Shown piece by piece: positions 15,927-38,053 of a stretch of DNA of 38,053 nt. Each line of letters starts with the position of its first letter. Positions within the stretch are counted from its first letter, which is position 1. The notes beneath the pieces are model-generated. The model had not been told where the DNA came from and ran no database searches. It saw only the letters and a list, made by a program, of their open reading frames with translations. Where the stretch lies: the NCBI GenBank assembly GCA_017882765.1, contig JADGOW010000002.1:1-38053 (forward strand). Reading direction: 5' to 3'. Both the position numbers and the translations under genes were made by a program. The DNA is from Frankiaceae bacterium (GTDB lineage Bacteria; Actinomycetota; Actinomycetes; Frankiales; Frankiaceae).

Positions 15927-16673
15927 GTGCTGGTCGACGGCTTCTCCGCAGGTCCCACCGATACGAACTGCTACATCGTGGCGCCCGGCCCGGGGCAGGA
16001 ATGCGTCGTCATCGACCCGGGCATCGGCGCGGACGACGACGTCGACGCGCGCCTGCGCGAGCACCGCCTCAAGCCGGTCGCCGTGATCCTCACCCACGGG
16101 CACTTCGACCACACGTTCTCGGTGGTGCCCGTGTGCGGCGCGCGCGACATCCCCGCCTACATACACCCAGCGGACCGCGGCCAGCTCACCGACCCCTGGT
16201 CGCCCGTGGGCCTGCCGAAGGGCATCCCCTTGTTCGGCCGCCTGCAATGGACCGAGCCCGACGACGTCCGGGAGCTGTCCGGCGGGCAGGTGCTCGACCT
16301 TGCCGGGGTTCGGCTGCGGGTCGACCTCGCGCCGGGCCACACGCCCGGTTCGGTGACGTTCGCCACGACGGAGCCGGTGGAACTCAGGCGGGGCGAGCCA
16401 ACCCCGGTGCTCTTCTCCGGTGACCTCATCTTCGCCGGCAGCGTCGGCCGCACCGACTTCCCGGGCGGCTCGTATGCCGCCCTGCTGGAGTCGCTCGCCC
16501 GGGTCGTCCTTCCGCTGCCCGATGACACGATCGTGCTCAGCGGCCACGGCCCCGCGACCTACGTCGGCCACGAGCGGGCCGCCAACCCCTTCCTGGCCGA
16601 GGCCGGGCCGGACCGCGCCGGCCCTGCTCGGTACGGGCTGGACCCCAGCGGCCCTGCTCGGTACGGGCCGTGA
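15927..16673 (+). CDS. MBL-fold metallo-hydrolase (glyoxalase II-like)
   Basis: 248 residues of the metallo-beta-lactamase superfamily. The dinuclear zinc motif THGHFDHT is at 56-63, followed by His in [10 protein letters not shown] and Asp in [20 protein letters not shown], then a last His in [12 protein letters not shown]. Such proteins hydrolyse thioesters such as S-lactoylglutathione-like compounds; the true substrate here is unknown. The C-terminus ends in an imperfect 30-bp DNA duplication giving GPARYG twice. GTG 15927 is the only start giving the normal N-terminus. Its TGA overlaps the hisS GTG (GTGA), so the two are coupled. Confidence 0.92.
16621..16667 (+). repeat. 30-bp period duplication at the MBL gene 3' end
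   Basis: GCCCTGCTCGGTACGGG occurs at 16621-16637 and again at 16651-16667, exactly 30 bases apart and in frame, with weaker similarity extending upstream. The second copy runs into the hisS start. Confidence 0.85.
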
Positions 16674-17920
16674 CCACTTCTTTCACCGCCCCCAAGGGCA
16701 CCTTCGACCTGCTCCCGCCGCGCTCGGCGACCTTCCTCGCCGTGCGGGAGGCGATCGCCGCGCCCCTGCGGCTCGCGGGCTACGGCTACGCCGAGACGCC
16801 GGTGTTCGAGGACACCGCCCTGTTCGAGCGTGGCGTCGGCGAGTCCACCGACGTGGTGAGCAAGGAGATGTACACGTTCCTGGACAAGGGCGGGCGCTCG
16901 ATCACGTTGCGCCCCGAGGGGACCGCCTCCGTGCTGCGCGCGGCGCTGGAGGCCGGCCTGCAGAAGGGGCCGCTGCCGGTCAAGCTCTGGTACGCCGGGT
17001 CGTTCTTCCGCTACGAGCGCCCACAGGCCGGCCGCTACCGCCATTTCAGTCAGGTCGGGGCGGAGGCGCTCGGGCTGGACGACCCGGCGCTGGACGCAGA
17101 GCTGATCTGGCTGGCCGCGCAGGGCTACCAGCGCCTCGGGCTGCGCGGGGTCCGGCTGCTGCTGAACTCGCTCGGCGACGCGACCTGCCGCCCGGTGTAC
17201 CGGGAGCGGCTGCAGCACTTCCTCCGCGGGCTCGACCTCGACGACGAGACCCGCCGGCGCGTGGAGATCAACCCGTTGCGGGTGCTCGACGACAAGCGGC
17301 CGCAGGTACGCGACCAGCTGGCGGGCGCCCCGCTCGTGGCCGACGCGCTGTGCGAGCCGTGCCGCGAGCACTACGACGAAGTGCGCGCGATGCTGGCCGA
17401 CGGCGGGGTGTCCTGGGAGGAGGCGCCCCGCCTGGTACGCGGGCTGGACTACTACACCCGCACGACGTTCGAGTTCGTGCATGACGGCCTGGGGGCGCAG
17501 GCGGCCGTCGGGGGCGGCGGGCGCTACGACGGGCTCTCCGAATCGATCGGAGGACCGCCGCTGCCCGGTGTGGGGTGGGCGGTCGGCGTCGACCGCACGG
17601 TCCTGGCGCTGGAGGCCGAAGGCGTCGAACTGGTCCCGCCGGGCCGGGTTCGGGTGTTCGCCGTGCCGCTGGGCGAGGCGGCCCGCCGCGAACTGGTCCG
17701 GCTGGTTGCGCGGTTGCGAGAGGCCGGCGTGGCCGCCGACCTCGCCTACGGGCAGCGGGGCATGAAGGGTGCGATGAAGGCGGCGGACCGCAGCGGAGCC
17801 GCCCACGCCATCGTCGCCGGAGACCGCGACCTCGCGGCCGGGGTCGCCCAGGTGAAGGACCTGCGTACGGGGGAGCAGCGGTCCGTGCCGCTCGATCGAC
17901 TGGTGGAGGAGCTGTCGTGA
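16670..17920 (+). CDS. hisS: Histidine-tRNA ligase
   Basis: 416 residues, class II synthetase charging tRNA-His. The HisRS start [13 protein letters not shown], motif 1 region, motif 2 ([19 protein letters not shown]), HisA signature [15 protein letters not shown], and motif 3 ([11 protein letters not shown], then [10 protein letters not shown]) are all present, with a C-terminal anticodon-binding domain ([14 protein letters not shown] onwards). The GTG start overlaps the MBL stop by four bases; its own TGA overlaps the aspS GTG. No T-box or other leader is possible at this start because it is inside the operon. Confidence 0.97.
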
Positions 17921-19713
17921 TCCGCACGCACGAGGCCGGGACGCTGCGCCGTTCCGACATCGGCACCTCCGTGGCGCTCGCCGGGTGGGTGGCCCGCCGG
18001 CGCGACCACGGCGGCGTGGCGTTTGTCGACCTCCGGGACGGCAGCGGGATCGCGCAGGTCGTCGTCCGCGATCTCGACCTGTCCGTGCAGCTGGAGTCGT
18101 GTGTGCGGGTGACCGGCACCGTCCGGGAGCGGCCCGCCGGCAATGCGAACCCGGACCTGCCCACGGGCGAGGTGGACGTGGTCGCCGACTCGCTGGAGGT
18201 GCTCAGCCGGGCTGCCCCGCTGCCGTTCCCGGTGGCCGACGCGGGGGGTCACGAGGTCGGCGAGGAGGTCCGGCTCAAATGGCGCTACCTGGACCTGCGC
18301 CGGCCCGCGGCGGCGCGGCTGCTCCGGCTGCGCTCGGACGTGACCCGCGTCATCCGCGCCGTCATGGACGAGAACCGCTTCGTCGACATCGAGACGCCCT
18401 ACCTGACCCGCTCGACGCCGGAGGGGGCGCGCGACTTCCTCGTCCCCGTCCGCCTGCAGCCAGGGTGCTGGTACGCGCTGCCGCAGTCACCGCAGTTGTT
18501 CAAGCAATTGCTGATGGTCGCGGGAATGGAGCGCTACTACCAGATTGCCCGGTGTTTTCGCGACGAGGATTTCCGGGCGGACCGCCAGCCTGAATTCACC
18601 CAGCTCGACATCGAAATGAGCTTCCTCGACGAGGAGGATGTCTACGCACTCACCGAGCAGCTGATTTCCCGGGTCTGGGGGACTGTGCTGGGGGTCGACG
18701 TCCCCACGCCGTTCCGCCGGATGGCCTACGCCGAGGCGATGACGCGCTACGGCACCGACAAGCCCGATCTGCGCTACGGGCTGGAACTGGCCGATCTGAC
18801 GTCCTATTTCGCGGGTACGGAATTCCGGATATTCGCCGCGGCGGAGCACGTCGGGGCGCTGGTCGTGCCCGGCGGCGCGTCCTACCCCCGCAAGCAACTG
18901 GACGCCTGGCAGGAGTGGGCCCGGGGGCGCGGCGCGAAGGGCCTGGCGTACGCGCTGTTCAGCACGGCCGGGGTCCCCGGCGGGGGCATCGCCAAGAACC
19001 TGGCCGAGCAGGAGCTGCGGGGGTTGCGCGCGGCGGTGGGGGCCGAGCCCGGCGACGCCGTGTTCTTCGCCGCCGGCCCGCGGCGGGAGTCGCTGGAGCT
19101 GCTCGGCGCCTTCCGCGCCGCCGCCGCGCGGGAGCGGGGCCTGGTGCCCGACGGGCGCTGGGAGTTTCTCTGGGTCGTCGACTCGCCGATGTTCGAGCCG
19201 ACCGACGAGGGCGGTTGGACGTCGGTGCACCACCCCTTCACCGCGCCCAAGCCCGAGCACGAGGCGGGTTTCGCGGACGCCCCCGGGCAGGCACTGTCGC
19301 GGGCCTACGACGTGGTGCTCAACGGGACGGAGATCGGCGGTGGCTCCATCCGTATCCATCGGGCCGGCGTGCAGCAGCGCGTGTTCGACGTGCTCGGCCT
19401 GTCCCGCCAGGATGCCGAGGCCAAGTTCGGCTTCCTCCTGGAGGCTTTCCGGTATGGACCGCCGCCGCACGGCGGGATCGCGTTCGGGCTGGATCGCGTC
19501 TGCGCCCTGCTCGGGGGGGCCGAATCGATCCGGGACGTGATCGCATTCCCGAAAACGGCGTCCGGTAGCGACCCGCTGACAGGTGCACCCACGCCGATCA
19601 CGGCGGGGCAGCGCCGGGATGCGGGTATCGACGCCACCCCATCGGCCCGGGCGCACGCCGGGGGGCCGCCCAATCTGCCGGCGGGGGAGACCAGGCCCGA
19701 CGAGAAACGCTGA
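17917..19713 (+). CDS. aspS: Aspartate-tRNA ligase, probably non-discriminating (Asp/Asn)
   Basis: 598 residues of bacterial AspRS type: N-terminal OB anticodon-binding domain, class II catalytic core with motif 2 ([23 protein letters not shown] region), inserted GAD domain, and motif 3 GGIAFGLDR near the end, followed by a 50-residue Pro-rich tail. GTG 17917 overlaps the hisS stop and has GGAGGAG upstream; the open frame before it is only the hisS shadow. His31 in RRRDHGG and Gly75 in ERPAGN match residues known to permit tRNA-Asn recognition in the non-discriminating Pseudomonas enzyme (E. coli has Leu at the His position). This would fit GatCAB-dependent Asn-tRNA formation; inference. Confidence 0.97.
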
Positions 19714-19779: not shown

Positions 19780-19785
19780 TAGCCT
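19780..19785 (+). promoter_or_regulatory. -10-like TAGCCT six bases before the Ymh-like gene
   Basis: TAGCCT, then exactly 6 bases, then ATG 19792, with no ribosome-binding site: the standard spacing for a leaderless actinobacterial mRNA. The -35 is not recognisable. Confidence 0.5.
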
Positions 19786-19791
19786 GGCCCG

Positions 19792-20847
19792 ATGCTATCG
19801 CCGGAGCTGCCCAGGACGGTCGCGACGCCCTGGCCTGTGGGCAAGTTGCGCAGCGAACTCGACCGGCTCACGGGCGAGCTCGCAAGGTGGCAGCGGTACC
19901 CGCATTTCGGGCTCGGCGAGGAGTTCTGCCACCGGGCCAACCGGATTCTGACGCACCTCCGCGGCCAGCCCCACGCCCCGGACGTGGAATGGCCGGAGCA
20001 GTTCTCCTTCGAACGGTCCGACCTGGGCAAGGACCGGCTGACGATCGATCCGGAGTCGGTGCAGCGCATGCTCGACTGGGTCAAGAAGCTCAACGACCTG
20101 CTGCCCGCGCCGCGTGTCCCGGACGTGGTCGGCGGGGACGGCGTCTTTCAGGGGACGGTGTGGCCTGAGGGACGCATCCGCATCGAGCTGCGCCGCCTCC
20201 TCGACGATCTGAACCTGTGGCGGGGCTACCCCCACGTCGGCCTGGCGGCCGACCTGGCCCGGCGCGCCAACCGGGTCCTGACCCAGCTGCGCAGCCAGCC
20301 AGGCGCGCCGACGCGCAACTACCCCTCCAACTGGCAGTTCGACTCCAGTGACCTCGGTCCGTCCGGAGCCACCCTCACCGATGCCGCCACCACCCGGCTC
20401 ACCTCGTTCATCGAGGCGCTGGCGGAGATGGTGCCCGGGTTCGGTCCGGGCGCGCGTACCGCCCTCGCGCTCTCCTGTCTGCATCCGCGCGTCCAGTCCG
20501 CTGCCGCGTTCAGCTGGCGGGAAGGGCGGATGGCAGCCGCAGTCGCCGGGGCGGCGGAGACCGTGTGCGCACGCCTCCGCCAGATCAGCGGGCTGAGCGG
20601 CTCGGGAGAAGAGCTCGTCGAGGCCGCGCTGAACCACGATGCTCCCAAGGTGCTCATCGCCGGTCTGGACACCAGGGCAGGCCGCAGCGCCCAGAACGGG
20701 TGCCGGCATCTGGCGCTGGGGCTCGTCCAGAGTGCGACGGGCCTCGCGCGGCCGGCTGCTCCGCCGGTAACCGCGGACCGCGCCTACGAGATGCTGGCGC
20801 TGGCCAGCCTGGTGTTGCACCAGCTGGAGTTCGCCCGGGTGGCCTGA
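19792..20847 (+). CDS. Two-repeat protein with degenerate Ymh (TIGR02391-like) C-terminal domain
   Basis: 351 residues of unknown function. Residues 18-105 and 128-215 are an internal duplication with a period of exactly 110: KLRSELDRL/RIRIELRRL, RWQRYPHFGL/LWRGYPHVGL, RANRILTHLRGQP/RANRVLTQLRSQP, SDLG/SDLG. Residues 229-350 resemble the Ymh family in order: LHPRVQSAAA, REGRMAAAV, RLRQISGLSGSGEELV, APKVLIAG, then a C-terminal helix AYEMLALASLVLHQLEFARV. The family RNPxAH-type motif is not kept; the region reads SATGLARPAAP. Ymh-type proteins occur in phages and defence-linked loci, but their function is not settled. It is a stand-alone gene with a leaderless-type start, flanked by aspS and an acyl-CoA ligase. 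Confidence 0.75.
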   Translation: MLSPELPRTVATPWPVGKLRSELDRLTGELARWQRYPHFGLGEEFCHRANRILTHLRGQPHAPDVEWPEQFSFERSDLGKDRLTIDPESVQRMLDWVKKLNDLLPAPRVPDVVGGDGVFQGTVWPEGRIRIELRRLLDDLNLWRGYPHVGLAADLARRANRVLTQLRSQPGAPTRNYPSNWQFDSSDLGPSGATLTDAATTRLTSFIEALAEMVPGFGPGARTALALSCLHPRVQSAAAFSWREGRMAAAVAGAAETVCARLRQISGLSGSGEELVEAALNHDAPKVLIAGLDTRAGRSAQNGCRHLALGLVQSATGLARPAAPPVTADRAYEMLALASLVLHQLEFARVA

Positions 20848-20880
20848 GGGCGGCGCGACCCGACGGGTCGGCGGCCCGGC

Positions 20881-20944
20881 GAAGCGGTGGCGTAATGAAG
20901 CGGTGGCGCAGTGGAGCGGTAGGCCCTGGGAGGAGTGGCGTAAT
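20881..20944 (+). repeat. Four degenerate 16-bp tandem repeats
   Basis: Units at 20881, 20897, 20913 and 20929 follow GAAGCGGTGGCGTAAT with increasing divergence (unit 4 GGAGGAGTGGCGTAAT). They fill much of the 162-bp gap between the Ymh-like gene and the acyl-CoA synthetase. Confidence 0.75.
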
Positions 20945-21009
20945 GGTCCGCCCGGCGCCAGGATCGTCCTGGCGGCTCCGGGTCCCCGGGGCCAGGAGGG
21001 ACCGCACTC

Positions 21010-22641
21010 ATGCAGGCCACCATGCAGGATGCCCCGCTGACGCTGACCGCTCTGTTCCGACACGGCGCGACGGTGTACCCGGACAGTCGCGTCGTGACCG
21101 CCACGGCGGAGGGCTCGCGCAGCGCCACCTACACCCAGGTCGCGAACCGCGCCGCCCGGTTGGCCGCCGCGCTGGCGCGACTTGGCATTCAGCGTGACGA
21201 CCGGGTTGCCACGTTCCAGTGGAACAACCAGGAGCACCTGGAGGCCTACCTCGCCGTCCCCTCCATGGGAGCGGTGCTCCACACGCTCAACATCAGGCTC
21301 TTCCCCGAGCAGGTCGTCTACATCGCCAACCACGCCGAGGACCGCGTGGTCATCGTGGACAGCTCGCTGGCGCCGGTGCTGGCCCGCATCCTGCCCGAGC
21401 TCAAGACCGTTGAGCATGTGCTCGTGGTGGGGGAGGCCGACCGCGCGTCGCTGACCACGGCCAGCATCAGGGCGCACGGCTACGACGACCTGCTGGCCGC
21501 CGAGTCGGGCGAGTTCGATTGGCCGGCCGACGTGGACGAGCGGGCGGCGATGGCCATGTGCTACACGAGCGGGACGACGGGCAACCCGAAGGGCGTCGCC
21601 TACAGCCACCGGTCCACCTACTTGCACTCGATGGCCGCGTGCATGGGAACCGCCTTTGCGCTCAGCGAGGGGGACCGGGTGCTCCCGATCGTTCCCATGT
21701 TCCATGCGAGCGCGTGGGGCCTTCCTTACGCGGCCTGGATGTCCGGCGCCGACCTGCTGATGCCTGATCGGTTCCTGCAGGCCGAGCCGCTGTGCCGGTT
21801 CATGACCGCCGAGCGGCCCACCATGTCCGGGGCGGTTCCCACGGTGTGGAACGACGTACTCCGGCATGCAGTCGCCGAAAATGTGGATCTGTCCTTCTTC
21901 CGAGTGGTCGCCTGCGGAGGTGCGGCCGTCCCCCGAGCCCTCATGAAGGCTTTCCAGGAGCGGCTGGGCGTGACGGTCCTGCAGGCGTGGGGGATGACCG
22001 AGACGTCGCCGTTGGGCGCGATCGCAGCGCCGCCGAAGCAGGCATCAGAGGCGGAGCAGTGGACGTGGAGGTCCAAGACCGGGCGCGTCATCCCCGGGAT
22101 GGAGATCCGTCTGGTCGGCGATGACGGGACCGTCCTGCCGCCTGATGGCGAATCGGTCGGGGAGTTCGAAGCGCGCGGCCCCTGGGTGACCGGCGCCTAC
22201 TACAAAGGCGAGGACACGAGCCGGTTCCACGACGGCTGGTTGCGCACCGGCGACGTCGGGATCTTCGACCGCTACGGCTTCATGCAGATCACCGACCGCT
22301 CGAAGGACGTCATCAAGTCCGGCGGTGAGTGGATCAGCACGGTCGAACTGGAAAACGCCCTCATGGAGCACCCCGACATCCTGGAGGCCGCGGTGGTCGG
22401 CGTCCCCGACGACCGGTGGCAGGAGCGCCCGTTGGCCTCCGTGGTCGTCCGCCCCGGCGCGACCGTGGACTCCCAGACGTTGCGCGCCTTCCTCGCCGAG
22501 CGGATCGCGTCCTGGCAGATCCCGGAACGGTGGTCCTTCATCGACGAGGTACCCCGTACCTCGGTGGGCAAGTTCGACAAGAAGGTGCTGCGCACCCGCT
22601 ACGCCGACGGCGGGCTGCCTGTCGAGACAATCGGCGGGTAA
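21010..22641 (+). CDS. AlkK-like medium/long-chain acyl-CoA synthetase
   Basis: 543 residues of the ANL adenylating superfamily, activating a carboxylic acid to its CoA thioester with ATP. The P-loop [12 protein letters not shown] lies at about 185-196, the A5 motif AWGMTETSP follows, then GWLRTGDVG (about 408-416) and the C-terminal catalytic Lys in [11 protein letters not shown] (about 515-525). The [18 protein letters not shown] segment is characteristic of AlkK-type fatty acyl-CoA ligases; chain length cannot be told. ATG 21010 follows GGAGGG by about 10 bases; ATG 21022 is an alternative. Its neighbourhood includes a transporter and a dehydrogenase, so its acid may be an imported compound. 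Confidence 0.93.
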
Positions 22642-22657
22642 GGGAGCGCCCGAAGTC

Positions 22658-22681
22658 CCGGCCGGGAGGGGCTCCGGCCGG
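22658..22681 (+). terminator. GC-rich hairpin after the acyl-CoA synthetase gene
   Basis: CCGGCC (22658-22663) and GGCCGG (22676-22681) form a stem that can be extended inward with one bulge; it lies 16 bases after the stop and before the antiporter gene. No T-tract. Confidence 0.4.
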
Positions 22682-22734
22682 CCGCGCGTCCGGCGCAGTG
22701 CGCTCCTCGGGTACTTCGTGGGACGGGGGTCGGC

Positions 22735-23967
22735 GTGGTCCTCGTCCTCATCTACGGGGTCACGTTGCTGCTCGTGGTCCTGGTCTCGGGGCTGGCCGCG
22801 CGGACCGTGCTGTCCACGTCGTTGATGTTCCTGCTGGCCGGGGCCATCGCCGGCGATGGCGGTTTCGGCTGGCTGTCGCTGACCCCCGACAGCTCGATCG
22901 TGTCGACGCTGGCCGACCTCGCCCTGTTCACAGTGCTGTTCACCGATGGGCAGCGGGCCGGTATCCCTGAGCTGCGGCAGGCCTGGCGGCTGTCCGGGCG
23001 GGCCTTGCTGCTGGGGATGCCCTTGACATTCCTCGGCGTCGCCGTGCTCGCCCACTACGTAGCCGGCCTGGACGCGACGACCGCCTTCCTCGTCGGGGCG
23101 GTGCTCAGCCCGACCGACCCGGTGTTCGCCTCGGCGATCGTGACCCGCCAGGACGTGCCCGAGCGGCTGCGCCAGCTGCTCAACATCGAAAGCGGTCTCA
23201 ACGACGGGCTGGCGCTTCCCGTCGTCGTTGTGCTCATCGCCGCGGCCTCCAACGCCACCAGCGGCTCCGGCGCCTCGATCAGCACCGTGTTGCTGGAACT
23301 GGTTGCCGGCCTCGCGCTCGGCGCCGCGCTCCCCGTCGCGGCCGCGCTGCTGGTGAAGCTGCCGCTGCTGGGCAGCGAGCCGCGATTCCAGCCCCTCGGC
23401 CCCTTCGCCCTGGCCGTGACCCTGTACGCGCTGTGCCACCTCACCGGCGCGAACCCCTACCTCGCTGCCTTTGCCGCCGGCTCGATGGTCGCCACGTTCA
23501 CTCCCGAGGGCAGCGACGCGTTCGAGGAGTTCGGAGACCTGCTCGCGGAACTGGCCAAGTTCGCGGCGGTCCTGGTGTTCGGAGCTTTGTTGACCCCAAC
23601 GCTGTTCGCCGAGACGTCGGTGGGGGCCTACGTCGTCGCGGTGCTCACTTTGGTCCTCGTCCGGCCGGTGAGCCTGCTGCTGTCGCTGATCGGCGCGCGC
23701 CTGTCCCGGCGGGAGAAGGCTGCCGCGGCATGGTTCGGGCCCAAGGGATTCGCCTCAGTCGTCTACGGGTTGCTCGTGCTGCAGTCGGGGGTGCCGCAGG
23801 CGGTGCCGGCCTTCGATCTCATCGCCGTGACCATCACGTTGTCGATCGTGTTGCACAGCTCCACGGACGTTCCGGTGGCCAGGCTGTTCCACCTGGAGGG
23901 CCTCGCCGGCCTGCCGGACGACGAGCACGGGGGCGGGACCGCCGAGCCCGACGCTGCGCCGCCCTAA
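22735..23967 (+). CDS. CPA1-family Na+/H+ antiporter
   Basis: 410 residues, mostly hydrophobic, about 12 membrane helices. The ion-binding signatures are present: SPTDPV at 125-130 and the ESGLNDG motif at 152-158, both typical of CPA1 (NhaP/NHE) exchangers, and a late GPKGFASVVYGLLVL helix. There is no long C-terminal regulatory domain, so it is a minimal antiporter exchanging cytosolic Na+ or K+ for H+. The GTG start lies 93 bases after the acyl-CoA synthetase stop with GGGACGGGGG upstream. Ion preference is not predictable. Confidence 0.92.
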   Translation: MVLVLIYGVTLLLVVLVSGLAARTVLSTSLMFLLAGAIAGDGGFGWLSLTPDSSIVSTLADLALFTVLFTDGQRAGIPELRQAWRLSGRALLLGMPLTFLGVAVLAHYVAGLDATTAFLVGAVLSPTDPVFASAIVTRQDVPERLRQLLNIESGLNDGLALPVVVVLIAAASNATSGSGASISTVLLELVAGLALGAALPVAAALLVKLPLLGSEPRFQPLGPFALAVTLYALCHLTGANPYLAAFAAGSMVATFTPEGSDAFEEFGDLLAELAKFAAVLVFGALLTPTLFAETSVGAYVVAVLTLVLVRPVSLLLSLIGARLSRREKAAAAWFGPKGFASVVYGLLVLQSGVPQAVPAFDLIAVTITLSIVLHSSTDVPVARLFHLEGLAGLPDDEHGGGTAEPDAAPP

Positions 23968-24179
23968 CGACCGCGAACCGCATGAGATTGCCAACCTCGC
24001 GTGCCTGCGCTGTCGTGAGGCTCTCGGCACGGGGGAGGCTCTGCAGGTGGCGCCGGCGCGGCGTCGCTTCTGAGGTCCGGTGTAACCGTGGGAGACCGCG
24101 GCCCGCGCAGGCGTTACCGTCGGTGGTGGCCGGATGTCCCGTCCGGTCCCGGTCAAGCGTGTGGTCGGAGGTCGCCTCG

Positions 24180-25562
24180 ATGCGGAGGTTGTCGCCGGTG
24201 GCCTGGGCGCCGACGGGGGCGCCGATGGGGGCGCTGGTTGCGGCGCTGTCGGCTGTGCTGGTGCTCGCCGCGTGCGGGACACGCCTGCCCGACAGCGCCT
24301 TCGCCACCCCCACACCCGCCCCGCAGACGCCGGGGTCGGACGGGAGCGGGAACTTCGCCTCCGACACGGGCGTCACGGCCAACACGGTCAAGGTCGGGGT
24401 AATCGTGAGCAAGACCAGTGCTCTCGGCCCGTACACGTTCTCCGGCTCCTACTACGGCGCGACGGCTTTCTTCGACGAGCTCAACCGCAGCGGCGGCGTG
24501 CACGGCCGGAAGGTGACCGTCGACTTCTGCGACGACGAGGGCACGGGGGCGGGCAACGTCGACTGCGCGCACAAGCTGATCGACCAGGACAAGGTCTTCG
24601 CACTTGCCGGCGTGACGGCCTTCCAGTACGACGGGGCTGGCTACGTGCAGTCGAAGGGCATGCCCGACATCGCGGGGCAGCCAATCGGCAACGAATACGA
24701 CCAGTACCACCACCTGTGGAACCTGTACGGCAGCGACGAGCCACGGGACGGGACCATCGGCTGGGACGGCAAGCTCTACGGCGGCACCGAGGTATATCGG
24801 TGGTTCAAGGAGCGCGTCAGCGCCCGGCGCGCGGGCGTCGTCTTCTACAACGTGGCCCCCTCCCAGCGCTTCGCCCAGTACCAGGAACTCGGGCTGCGGG
24901 CCGAGGGGTACGACGTCCGAATGGAGCAGATCAACCTCGGCCTGTCCAACTTCGACGGCGCTGTCGCCGACATGTCGGCGCACGGCGTCGACGTCGTCTT
25001 CGACGCCTTGGACGAAGGGGGCAACGTCCGGTTGTGCCAGGCCATGGACGCGCATGACTTCGCGGTCAAGGCGAAGGTCACGACGACCCAGAGCTGGTCC
25101 CAGCGGATCGGTGGCACCTACGCCAACGCCCCGAAGTGCCGCAACACGATCTACGCCACGGGCAACACCCGCAACTACGCCGACCAGCAGTACGAGCAGG
25201 TGGCGAAGTTCCGCGCCGCCATGTCGCGCCTGTACCCGGACCAGGGCCCCAACCTGAACATGTGGATGCTGGAAGGGTGGGCATCGGCGCTGTGGCTGAC
25301 CGATGCCATGGCGAGTTGCGGGCCCAGGCTGACCCGGGGCTGCGTCGAGACCTACATGGCGCGCAAGGAGCCCTACGACGGCCACGGGTTGCTGACTCCC
25401 CGGGGCTTCATCGTCAATCATCCCGGCCCGACGTCGAACAACTGCCTCAACGTGGCTCAGTGGCAGGACTCGGCTGAGGGCGGCAAGGGCGGGTGGGTCA
25501 CCCGAGTCAAGGACATGAACACCGAGTGCTTCGACGTGCCCGAGGTGTCCTACACCCCGTAA
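24180..25562 (+). CDS. Lipoprotein substrate-binding protein of a branched-chain-type ABC transporter
   Basis: 460 residues. Signal peptide with lipobox LAAC (Cys32), Pro/Thr linker, then a periplasmic-binding-protein type 1 fold of the leucine/amide-binding class (VKVGVIVSKTSALGPY start, FFDELNRSGGVHGRKV, ALAGVTAFQYDGAGYV). Several Cys residues suggest disulphides. ATG 24180 has an ideal GGAGGT seven bases upstream; the much longer open frame before it is a shadow of the antiporter gene and gap. The ligand is unknown. It is convergent with the SDR-livFG-livHM operon on the other strand, and is the probable binding partner of that permease; the 212-bp upstream gap shows no clear promoter. Confidence 0.92.
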   Translation: MRRLSPVAWAPTGAPMGALVAALSAVLVLAACGTRLPDSAFATPTPAPQTPGSDGSGNFASDTGVTANTVKVGVIVSKTSALGPYTFSGSYYGATAFFDELNRSGGVHGRKVTVDFCDDEGTGAGNVDCAHKLIDQDKVFALAGVTAFQYDGAGYVQSKGMPDIAGQPIGNEYDQYHHLWNLYGSDEPRDGTIGWDGKLYGGTEVYRWFKERVSARRAGVVFYNVAPSQRFAQYQELGLRAEGYDVRMEQINLGLSNFDGAVADMSAHGVDVVFDALDEGGNVRLCQAMDAHDFAVKAKVTTTQSWSQRIGGTYANAPKCRNTIYATGNTRNYADQQYEQVAKFRAAMSRLYPDQGPNLNMWMLEGWASALWLTDAMASCGPRLTRGCVETYMARKEPYDGHGLLTPRGFIVNHPGPTSNNCLNVAQWQDSAEGGKGGWVTRVKDMNTECFDVPEVSYTP

Positions 25563-25568
25563 AGGGCG

Positions 25569-25599
25569 CGCGACCAGGGTCGGTATCGCGACCAGGGTC
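25569..25599. repeat. Repeated 13-mer between convergent stops
   Basis: CGCGACCAGGGTC occurs at 25569-25581 and 25587-25599; the second copy touches the SDR stop codon. Confidence 0.75.
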
Positions 25600-26413
25600 A
25601 GCCCGGGGCTGGTGGTGGGGTTGTGGCCGCGCTACCGATGACCCGGTCGCGCCAGCGCGCCATGCCGGCGATCCAGTTGTCCCGGTCGGCTACTCGCTTC
25701 TGCTCGAACCCGGCGACCTCCGGGTGCGGTAGAACCAGGAACTGTCCCGCACGCAGGGCCTTGACGACAGAGTCGGCCACCTCCTCGGGTTCGAGGAGCG
25801 CGCCAGCGGCGAGCGTCGACGGCCCTATACCCTCCGTTTCGATCATGGGGGTGCGCACACCCTGCGGGCAGAGGCAGTGGAACCCAACCCCGGCGCCGGC
25901 GTAGGTGATCGCAAGCCACTCCGCCAGGGCGACCGCGGCGTGTTTGGTCGCTGCGTACGGGGCGCTGTCCAGGCTGGTCAGCAGACCCGCCGCCGACGCC
26001 GTGACGAGAAAGGCGCCCCCTCCCCGGGAGGCCATGTCGGGCAGGACCGCGCGGGCGAGGTTCACGACACCGAGAACGTTGACCTCCCAGCACTTCTGCC
26101 AGACCGCGTCCGGTGCGGCCAGACCGGTGCCGATCGCGACGCCGGCGTTGGCGCAGGCGAAATCTACGGGACCGAACCGGCTGACCGACGCTGCGACGGC
26201 TTCGGCCAGCGCGCTCCCGTCGGTGACGTCGTTGACCACGCCCACGCTCTCGGCGCCGCCCGCCTCCACCTGCTGGGCGGTGTCGTGGGCGGCGTCGCCG
26301 AGGTCGAGCACCGTGACGGCGCGTGCGCCCTCGCTCGCGGCGCGCAGCGCGAGAGACCGTCCGATTCCGCTGCCGCCCCCGGTTACCAGCACGTGTGTGC
26401 CCCGCAGCTCCAT
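25598..26413 (-). CDS. Short-chain dehydrogenase/reductase
   Basis: 271 residues, classical SDR with the NAD(P)-binding TGGGSGIG at 11-18, NAG at 89-91, catalytic Ser140, Tyr153 and Lys157 (YAATK). The C-terminal stretch after about 200 (LLEPEEVADSVVKAL, PHPEVAGFEQKR) is typical of actinobacterial SDRs of unknown alcohol or ketone substrate. The ATG is one base after the livF stop, so it is the last gene of the Liv operon, suggesting that it oxidises or reduces the imported compound or a CoA-linked derivative. Confidence 0.92.
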   Translation of the reverse strand: MELRGTHVLVTGGGSGIGRSLALRAASEGARAVTVLDLGDAAHDTAQQVEAGGAESVGVVNDVTDGSALAEAVAASVSRFGPVDFACANAGVAIGTGLAAPDAVWQKCWEVNVLGVVNLARAVLPDMASRGGGAFLVTASAAGLLTSLDSAPYAATKHAAVALAEWLAITYAGAGVGFHCLCPQGVRTPMIETEGIGPSTLAAGALLEPEEVADSVVKALRAGQFLVLPHPEVAGFEQKRVADRDNWIAGMARWRDRVIGSAATTPPPAPG

Positions 26414-26414
26414 C

Positions 26415-27079
<665 letters not shown>

Positions 27080-27083
<4 letters not shown>

Positions 27084-27823
27084 CGGGGCTCGCCCGCCTT
27101 CGCGATGACCTCGGCGTCGGCCAGCTCGTGTGGGGCTCCTTCTGCGACGATCCGGCCGGCGGCCATGAGCAGCACCGAGTCCGCGACGTCGAGCACAAAC
27201 CGGAGATCATGCTCGATGGCCAGTACCGAAACGTCGCGTCCCGCCACTTCGCGGATGAGATGGCCGACGGCGTCGCTCTCCCTCCGGTCCAGGCCACTGG
27301 TCGGTTCGTCCAGCAGCAGGACGCCGGGCTGAGCACACAGGGCCCGGCCGATCTCCACGAGGCGGCGCGTGCCGGTGGGCAGCGAACCCGCGAGCGTGTC
27401 CCCGACCTCGGCCAGGCCGAGGTCGTCGAGGACGTGGCGCACGATCCCGGCGGTGTCCGGGGCCGCAAGGTGGACGAACCCGTGCAACAGGTTGCGCCGG
27501 TGCCGGTGCTCCGCGCCTACCTGCAGGTTCTCCCGCACGGTCAGAGTCGAGAACACGGCCCCGGTCTGGAAGGTCTGGACGAGGCCGCGCCGCGCCCGCG
27601 CGTCCGGGGGGAGCGCGGTGACGTCCCGGCCGTCGAGGACGACCCGGCCCGTGTCGGGTTGCATGCTGCCGCTCACGCACTGGAGCAGGGTGCTCTTGCC
27701 GGCGCCGTTGCGGCCGAGCACAGCGACGACGGCGCCCCCCGGCACCGACACCGTGACGTCGTCGAGGGCCACGACCCCGCCGAAGCGCTTGCTCAGGTTT
27801 GTGGCGCCGAGTCGCGGGTTCAC
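27080..27823 (-). CDS. livG: LivG-type ABC transporter ATP-binding protein
   Basis: 247 residues: Walker A GRNGAGKST (37-45), signature LPTGTRRLVEIGRAL, Walker B VLLLDEPTSGLD. The signature lacks the canonical LSGGQ but Liv-type G subunits commonly read LPxG, so this is ordinary. GTG 27823 overlaps the permease TGA; upstream in-frame codons belong to the permease gene shadow. It pairs with livF to power the fused permease. Confidence 0.93.
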
Positions 27824-29784
27824 CGCCGTACCCGCATGAGCAGCTCGCGGCCACGGGGGGACAGCCGCCGCGGGCGCGTCGGCGTCACGTCGGGACCCGG
27901 GAGGGTCTCGCGCGGCCGCCACGGGCTGGCAAGTGATGCCGCGGGGACCGGGCCGGCCGCATCGGCCGGCCAACGTCGAAGCATCCCGGCGACCCCCCCG
28001 GGCATCCGTCCCAGGAGCACGGCCAGCAGGCCCACGACAAACGTCGACGTGCCCGGTCCCTCCCGGTAGTCGATGAAGACGAGCAGCGCCGCCGCGCCGA
28101 CGGCAGCTGTCGTGCTCTCCGCCCCGGCGACGAGCACGACGGCGAACCACACGAGTCCCTGCAGGGGACTGAAAGCGTCTGCGTCGAAGGAGCCACTGGC
28201 CTGGGCCAGCAGAGCGCCACCGAGCCCGGCCATCGCGGCGCTGACCGTGAAGGTCAGCAGTTTGAGGGCCCGGATGTCGATCCCGACCGAGCGCGCGCCG
28301 TCCTCACTGTCGCGCATCGCCCGAAGTGCGCGCCCGGCCACTCCGGTGGACAGCATCCACAGCGCGCCCAGGCCGACCGTGAGCAAGACCAGCTCGGCGA
28401 GGTAGAACGCTTTGTGGCCGGGGAAGAGCCGCAGGACGTGCAGCCCGTCGACGACGGCGGGCTGCTCGAACAGGAAGCGGGTGGCAACGGTCCCGACCGC
28501 GAACGTGGTCAGCGCCAGCGCCAGGCCGGTGCGCCGCACGGCGGCAAACCCGGTCACGAGCCCCGCCACACCGGCCAGCAGCGCACCGACCGCTAGCGCG
28601 GTGCCGGCGGGCAGAGCCGGAATCCCGAGCCGGCCCTGGACGAGCATTACCGAGAACAGCGCGCCCATGCCGGCGTACCCGGCCTGACCCAGGCTGATCT
28701 GGCCGCTGATTCCGGTCAGGAGCACCAGCGACAGGAAGATCAGGGCCAGCGCGGGCACGACCTCGGCCGCGCGCAGGTCTTCGGGTTGGAACGTCAGCGG
28801 GGCGAGCAGCGCCAACGCGCCGAACAGGATCCACAGCCGGTGGCTGCGCCCCCGGGGGCTGGGCGCGAGCAGTGCCGGCGTGCCTGTCTCGCCGACCTCG
28901 GCCAGGCGCGGTCGCAGCAGCAGGCCGACCAGCAGGGCGACGACGAACAGGTTCGACTGCAGCGCACCCAGCGCCTGCTGGGCGTCCGGGTCGCTGAACT
29001 GCACCTGCTGCAGCTCGGACTGGGCGATGCCGAGGGCGAACGCGGCCAGAACGCACACCGTCGGGCTCTTCAGTTTGGCGATCACGACGACGGCGAGTGT
29101 CTCGAGCACGATGAGCGTGAGCCCGAACGGTGTCAGCTGCACGCTGGGTGCGAGCAGCACCCCGGTGAGCCCGGCGAGGCCGCCTCCGACGCCCCAGCCG
29201 ATGGCCGCGACACCGTCGGCGTTCACCCCGGACAGCTCCGCCAGCTCCCGCCGGTCGACGACGGCCCGAACGTAGAGGCCGATGCGCGTGTACCGGCTCA
29301 GCAGCCATCCCGCGAGCCCGATCACCACGAGGACGCCCAGGATCTCAACCGTGCTGGTGAGCACCGTCGCCCCGCCCGGCAACTTGATCGCCCCGCTCGG
29401 GAAGATCGACGGCGCGTCCAGGTGGGCCTGGCCTCCCCACACCTGGAACGCGACGCCCATCAGCAGGACGAGCACACCGAGGGAGGCGACCAGCGACTCC
29501 GAGGGCCCCGCTCCCCGGTGGCGCAGCGGCCGGAACACCATGAGATCGGCGAGCAGCCCGAGCCCCGGCCCGACGACGAAGATGGCCAGCGGGGCCGCGA
29601 TCTGCAGCGGCCAGCCCCATCCCCGCACGGCCTGCCACAGCAGGTAGGCAGTCATCATCGCGAAGGCGCCGTGGGCTAGGTCCAGGACGCCGGTCGTCCG
29701 GTAGGTGACGAGCAGCCCGAGCCCGGACAGCGCGGCGATCGCGCCAATGGCCAGCCCGGCCAGAGCCAGATTCAGCGTGAGCAC
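27820..29784 (-). CDS. livHM: Fused LivH-LivM permease
   Basis: 654 residues joining two permeases that are usually separate. The LivH half (about 1-300) contains GLLVTYRTTGVLDLAHGAF and the coupling region GLYVRAVVDRRELAELSGVN. The LivM half (about 315-600) contains GISGQISLGQAGYAGMGALF and GRALRAMRDSEDGARSVGID, the ATPase contact loop, ending in a 50-residue Arg/Pro-rich cytosolic tail. Together about 16 membrane helices form one transport channel. The GTG start is seven bases after the preceding gene stop, with no strong ribosome-binding site, suggesting coupling. Confidence 0.92.
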   Translation of the reverse strand: MLTLNLALAGLAIGAIAALSGLGLLVTYRTTGVLDLAHGAFAMMTAYLLWQAVRGWGWPLQIAAPLAIFVVGPGLGLLADLMVFRPLRHRGAGPSESLVASLGVLVLLMGVAFQVWGGQAHLDAPSIFPSGAIKLPGGATVLTSTVEILGVLVVIGLAGWLLSRYTRIGLYVRAVVDRRELAELSGVNADGVAAIGWGVGGGLAGLTGVLLAPSVQLTPFGLTLIVLETLAVVVIAKLKSPTVCVLAAFALGIAQSELQQVQFSDPDAQQALGALQSNLFVVALLVGLLLRPRLAEVGETGTPALLAPSPRGRSHRLWILFGALALLAPLTFQPEDLRAAEVVPALALIFLSLVLLTGISGQISLGQAGYAGMGALFSVMLVQGRLGIPALPAGTALAVGALLAGVAGLVTGFAAVRRTGLALALTTFAVGTVATRFLFEQPAVVDGLHVLRLFPGHKAFYLAELVLLTVGLGALWMLSTGVAGRALRAMRDSEDGARSVGIDIRALKLLTFTVSAAMAGLGGALLAQASGSFDADAFSPLQGLVWFAVVLVAGAESTTAAVGAAALLVFIDYREGPGTSTFVVGLLAVLLGRMPGGVAGMLRRWPADAAGPVPAASLASPWRPRETLPGPDVTPTRPRRLSPRGRELLMRVRR

Positions 29785-37733: not shown

Positions 37734-38053
37734 GGCGCTGTTGCGTTGTGCGGGGGCGGGGCAGGCGGAGGCGGCTGACGCGCCGGGTCGATCAGATGGC
37801 GAGGGCGAGTTCGGTGAACGCGACTGCCACGCGATCCAGGGCGGCGGCCTCGGTCGCGAGTTCGTAGTGGCCGCGTCGCAGGTTCTGCACGAACGCGTGT
37901 CCGGTGGCGACGATCCGCAGCGAGCGGTCCCGTTTCAGGCCGCGCATGGGCCCAAGCCGGGCCTTGAGCCGGCCGTGGTCGGCCTCGACCCGGTTGTTCG
38001 CGTAGGGCACGGTGACGTGGTTGGCGGCAGGCAGCAGCTCGTCGAGCACTCGT
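37734..38053 (-). mobile_element. IS6-family insertion sequence, right part (cut by window edge)
   Basis: Carries the C-terminal part of an IS6-type transposase. At 37734-37750, GGCGCTGTTGCGTTGTG resembles the family terminal repeat (GGxxCTGTTGCAAA type), so the element end is probably near 37734. The other end and any target duplication are outside the window. Confidence 0.75.
37792..38053 (-). CDS. IS6-family transposase, C-terminal part
   Basis: An open frame running off the window edge; the visible 87 residues end at the stop at 37792. They match the end of an IS6/IS240 DDE transposase: VLDELLPAANHVTVPYANNR, VEADHGRLKARLGPMRGLK (carrying the last Glu of the DDE triad), then HAFVQNLRRGHYEL. 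No frameshift or stop is visible. The first residues and the two catalytic Asp are outside, so activity cannot be judged. Confidence 0.9.
   Translation of the reverse strand, partial: RVLDELLPAANHVTVPYANNRVEADHGRLKARLGPMRGLKRDRSLRIVATGHAFVQNLRRGHYELATEAAALDRVAVAFTELALAI

Follow-up and report, generated by a model that had tools for sequence, protein, structure and literature searches.

Ymh-type HEPN Domains

Ymh domains constitute a family of HEPN RNases in which the catalytic motif is present (Anantharaman et al., 2013, PMC3710099). They are described there either as standing alone or as fused to paraMORC, AbiJ-NTD1, or AbiTii, and some Ymh genes adjoin restriction-modification genes. HEPN domains without the conserved polar residues are proposed in the same survey to be nucleic-acid-binding domains, and for some HEPN families the use of alternative residues is suggested. 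The HEPN domain of Swt1 and part of the MtlR family are thought there to be inactive, the R..H site having been lost, and RNA binding has been proposed for them (PMC3710099). A search of the open-access literature on inactive HEPN domains found nothing on Ymh pseudoenzymes.

The stretch of DNA analyzed here, 38,053 nucleotides of a Frankiaceae bacterium contig and hereafter the window, contains a gene for a protein in which two helical repeats precede a Ymh domain whose catalytic motif is gone (Table 1). A link of this protein to RNA, suggested in the initial annotation, follows from the placement of Ymh among the HEPN RNase families (PMC3710099). The only repeat-bearing relative found is encoded on contig JAVEDQ010000097.1 of Frankiaceae bacterium isolate BP_180, a metagenome-assembled genome (one locus, recorded as both L002 and L012). 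We lean toward reading the protein as a lineage-restricted, catalytically dead HEPN protein that has been repurposed as an adaptor binding RNA or a partner.

Table 1. Positions of the gene, its candidate promoter element, and the parts of its product.
Feature	Position in window	Strand	Basis
351-aa protein, two helical repeats and a C-terminal Ymh (HEPN) domain	19792..20847	+	open reading frame, coding GC pattern, BP_180 homologue
TAGCCT, candidate -10 hexamer for leaderless transcription	19780..19785	+	6 nt before the ATG
Repeat R1 (residues 12-105), modeled as three helices	19825..20106	+	alignment with R2; helices 16-35, 42-58, and 87-103 in the model
Repeat R2 (residues 122-215), modeled as three helices	20155..20436	+	alignment with R1, and the model
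Ymh domain PF09509/TIGR02391, residues 230-345	20479..20826	+	profile scores
Place of the lost motif, residues 316-321, TGLARP against RNPxxH in relatives	20737..20754	+	alignment

Coding Status and Start of the Gene

The reading frame is a genuine coding sequence, since the GC content of its three codon positions (0.73/0.52/0.89) is like that of its neighbors and a homologous frame is found in another genome. A long antisense frame at 19795-21867 was rejected as an artefact of high GC content, as it shows the mirrored codon-position pattern. The leaderless-type start recognized in the initial annotation was upheld. The ATG has no obvious Shine-Dalgarno sequence ahead of it, and the TANNNT pattern of the candidate -10 element has a background of 0.0006 (0.06%) per position in the window. 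In the BP_180 homologue the start giving the matching N-terminus is Met20, preceded at 7 nt by TACCGT, with no clear ribosome-binding site. The two upstream sequences would fit leaderless mRNAs for both genes, although a consensus scan of the window found no -35/-10 pair, and no -35, before the window gene.

The Ymh Domain

The window protein scores 58 bits against Pfam PF09509 (Hypoth_Ymh; cut-off 25, E 1.1e-15) and 42.4 bits against NCBIfam TIGR02391 (cut-off 39.45). Because both curated cut-offs are passed, the C-terminal domain is, by profile, a true member of the Ymh family; its earlier description as "degenerate Ymh-like" was correct as to the order of segments and the loss of the motif, while "like" is too weak a word. 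The BP_180 homologue also lies above the PF09509 cut-off (27.2 vs. 25), and within its own genome the window protein is the only PF09509 match.

In an AlphaFold2 model of the full protein (13 sequences, mean pLDDT 75.9), residues 231-351 have pLDDT values of 81-97 per block, the Ymh part being mostly at about 90 or higher. The modeled C-terminal part matches the ROQ domain of Roquin (4qik; Z 8.4, 117 residues aligned, rmsd 4.2), a domain that holds a HEPN fold. Matches to HepT (7ae6; Z 6.0, 104 aligned, rmsd 4.2) and to Csm6 (8jh1; Z 5.6, 105 aligned, rmsd 4.0) are below the level called clear, and a Foldseek search with this part gave no match at E ≤ 0.001. These numerically weak matches of a predicted structure would agree with a HEPN fold without proving it.

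The Repeat Module

Two 88-residue repeats with a period of 110 residues had been proposed from the initial inspection of the sequence. The period stands, with 36 of 91 residues identical at an ungapped offset of 110; when the whole protein is compared with itself this offset yields 47 identities, and the runner-up among offsets 100-120 yields 26. The length is instead 94 residues by local alignment of R1 with R2 (score 209, against a maximum of 56 over 1000 shuffles). The single repeat of the BP_180 homologue is 46% identical to R2, R1 and R2 are 37% identical to each other, and 26 repeat positions are invariant across all three copies.

Three main helices are seen in each repeat of the full-length model, and a repeat modeled alone, from only three sequences, reached a pLDDT of 78.9 and a pTM of 0.74. 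The best structural matches of the modeled repeat, to Bpa (5lfj) and a designed binder (9had), have a Z of 7.2, which is typical of helical bundles. Similarities to HEPN proteins, including Csm6 (8jbc, Z 6.0; 5fsh, Z 5.9), Las1 (7y16, Z 4.7), and an archaeal HEPN protein (1wol, Z 4.1), were likewise dismissed as helical-bundle noise. The possibility that the repeats are degenerate Ymh or HEPN copies was rejected on sequence, since an hhalign comparison of their profile with 17 Ymh domains gave a probability of 0.2%. Neither a Pfam family (up to E 1) nor a PDB sequence (up to E 10) matches the repeat part, in line with the earlier view that the repeats belong to no known family. With only three copies to judge from, the repeat has no match above the helical-bundle background.

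Loss of the Catalytic Motif

At the positions where R, N, and H stand in Ymh proteins, the window protein has T316, G317, and P321 (T-G-x3-P vs. R-N-x3-H), and the catalytic site of active HEPN RNases, whose loss had been noted in the initial annotation, is indeed missing from the protein when it is aligned. The BP_180 homologue keeps the R, has S in place of N, and lacks the H. Thus N and H are gone from both repeat-bearing proteins and R from the window protein only. A frameshift as the source of the loss was rejected, the other frames through the site containing no RN..H.

The state of the motif in relatives, proposed earlier as a check, was surveyed with PF09509 across 393 class genomes. 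The search returned 37 matches in 34 genomes, and all 37 were read. These comprise the window protein, the BP_180 homologue, and 35 others, two of which (L127 and L128) end before the site. N-x3-H is kept in all 33 of the other matches that span the site and in neither of the repeat-bearing proteins, and RN-x3-H is intact in 11 of 11 Ymh domains from viral contigs. The residue before N is R or K in 30 of the 33, the exceptions being L039 (SNVDRH), L125 (GNGHRH), and L126 (GNLHRH). In these three S/G-N-x2-R-H replaces R-N-x3-H, another possible active-site change among HEPN domains.

The survey also bears on whether the protein might be an active enzyme with a moved site, formed by other polar residues (e.g., H231, H343, or D329/R330), in which the repeats would sense a trigger as in abortive-infection HEPN proteins. 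Such a site would accord with the alternative residues suggested for some HEPN families (PMC3710099). H231 and H343 are common to both repeat-bearing proteins, and the change of R in the three exceptions indicates that the site drifts in the Ymh family. However, those exceptions retain N and H whereas the repeat-bearing proteins have neither, H231 is not a convincing new catalytic residue because it belongs to an LHP segment conserved across Ymh, and a defence context is absent. We therefore regard a moved site as improbable. Weighing against the preferred reading of a catalytically dead protein are the R that still occupies the position of residue 316 in BP_180, the chance that other residues such as the shared H231 and H343 act in catalysis, the numerically weak structural matches to HEPN folds, a modest dN/dS, and evidence that is two sequences deep.

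Distribution and Shared Origin

The spread of the repeat is narrow within the collections searched, with one other genome carrying it. A repeat profile applied to the 393 class genomes at E ≤ 0.001 gave three matches, in the window genome, the BP_180 genome (G015), and G387; the last (9.6e-4) was put down to chance, as it contains three stops in 50 codons. The same profile matched only the window genome among 346 genomes of the phylum and only the BP_180 locus in genome_contigs, where a scan with the single protein found no locus. Searches at the order and family levels covered the same 35 genomes. The repeat was not found in viral contigs, and phages gave only six weak matches to tape-measure proteins (E 0.4). 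It was not seen at the N-termini of other Ymh proteins (best E 0.47, n = 29, and 0.51 among six more), and the 11 matching plasmid records all matched inside the Ymh part (best E 0.03). Scans of viral contigs with the window Ymh part, L019, and A6 as queries returned nothing, PHROGs gave nothing beyond phrog_6297 (E 0.032), PDB sequence searches gave no credible match, and a BFVD fold search gave no match at E ≤ 0.001.

The BP_180 homologue consists of one repeat and a Ymh domain and is 42% identical to the window protein, a level at which the frame is open in both genera. Comparison of the two genes (NG86) gave a dN of 0.58 and a dS of 1.07, the dN/dS near 0.54 being modest and dS near saturation; constraint is weakly measured because only two proteins are known. 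In a tree of Ymh domains the two proteins are grouped on one side of a branch with support of 97/93, and of 97/94 when six motif columns are removed. The tree was built without L041, a second run also without L039 and L043, and neither six later-fetched matches nor the 11 viral ones were included. As the two repeat-bearing proteins group together even with the motif columns excluded, N and H would best be read as lost once, in connection with the gain of the repeat, which is the simplest account of the sequences.

The AspS protein of the window (17905-19713) is 69% identical to that of the BP_180 genome and 43-51% identical to those of the other 33 genomes of the family, which places the two genera far apart from the rest of it.

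Genomic Surroundings

The gene lies 78 nt after aspS and 162 nt before a gene for an AMP-binding ligase, alone among core genes as initially described. The BP_180 gene is flanked by an HNH gene, a homologue of which occurs in every one of the 35 family genomes, and by malQ. In the window genome HNH and malQ are again close, with an amidase-like frame (named from sequence) and no copy of the gene between them, and in the BP_180 genome the end of aspS is followed by an unrelated frame on the other strand. The gene therefore does not share its location between the two genomes and lies among ordinary genes in each. No defence genes or island were seen beside it in either known context; whether homologues cluster near phage or defence genes had been proposed earlier as a check. 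A partner gene of PD-Lambda-3 was absent from both sets of neighbors, and no MNT nucleotidyltransferase was found among the ten window frames and two BP_180 neighbors scanned.

Other features of the window were recorded in passing. The gap between the gene and the AMP-binding ligase gene holds three near copies of a GTGGCGYARTG-type sequence in a row (20884-20945), matches to which are not above chance in the window as a whole though three cluster here. A 30-nt head-to-tail direct repeat (16604-16663, 87% alike) lies just before hisS, and the end of an IS240-type DDE transposase (37792-38049) is found at the window edge. Near neighbors in many actinobacteria, aspS and rarA-alaS are here separated by genes for the AMP-binding ligase, a Na+/H+ exchanger, and branched-chain amino-acid transport (21010-29784).

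Two further explanations are touched by these surroundings. The protein could serve as an antidote, a dead HEPN domain pairing with a live HEPN RNase or titrating its target, and so giving immunity against toxins or elements from elsewhere. HEPN domains often form dimers, the PF09509 search revealed no active Ymh partner in the window genome, as would fit an outside target, and an active-looking Ymh protein (L009, RNLVSH) is found in another genome of the family. This role is nevertheless unlikely, a toxin gene adjoining in neither genome. The gene could also be what is left of a mobile RNase gene that is in decay and no longer has a function, as its differing location, lost motif, and modest dN/dS might suggest. 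Against decay stand the open frame in both genera, the gene-typical codon-position GC content, the invariant positions of the three repeat copies, and the leaderless-type start in both genomes, which together make a relic quite improbable.

Proposed Origin and Function

Under the preferred reading of a disarmed HEPN adaptor, a solo Ymh-type HEPN RNase would have acquired a three-helix domain at its N-terminus and been stripped of the RNxxxH residues N and H. Both changes would fall in an ancestor common to two genera of the same family, with the added domain now present twice in the window genome. RNA cutting by the usual HEPN mechanism would be abolished by this loss. The remaining HEPN fold, probably dimeric, would most likely bind RNA or a partner, while a second binding surface may be supplied by the tandem helical domains; it is from these two surfaces that an adaptor role is proposed. 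The product, translated from a leaderless mRNA, would then be an adaptor or regulator that performs no catalysis. More tentatively, the helical domain may be a new one, as yet seen in a single actinobacterial lineage, whose fusion to HEPN was accompanied at or near that time by loss of the site, turning a former RNase toxin into a non-catalytic RNA-binding regulator. If the preferred reading is right, a HEPN RNase of the phage-defence or toxin kind has lost its cutting function yet been retained, joined to a new partner domain and away from any defence island, offering a simple system in which to ask what inactive HEPN domains do.

Comparison with Known Systems

With the Ymh family the window protein shares, beyond its profile scores, the order of segments, from the LHP start through a helix with G before the motif to the A-xx-L-SL end. 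It differs in lacking RNxxxH and in carrying a new tandem helical N-terminus in place of the paraMORC, AbiJ-NTD1, or AbiTii fusions described for the family (PMC3710099). Protein B of the anti-phage system PD-Lambda-3 is a second point of comparison, PADLOC reporting a match to PD-Lambda-3_B (39.5 bits). This match is confined to residues 248-348 of the Ymh part, whereas the N-terminal part is unmatched, the motif is lost, and no partner gene adjoins; with no defence genes in either context, the immune role first suggested for the protein is not supported. The presumably inactive HEPN domains of Swt1 and of part of the MtlR family belong to other HEPN families and have other partner domains. 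By analogy only, they may nonetheless resemble the window protein in that the R..H site is gone, the domain is retained, and an RNA-binding role has been proposed.
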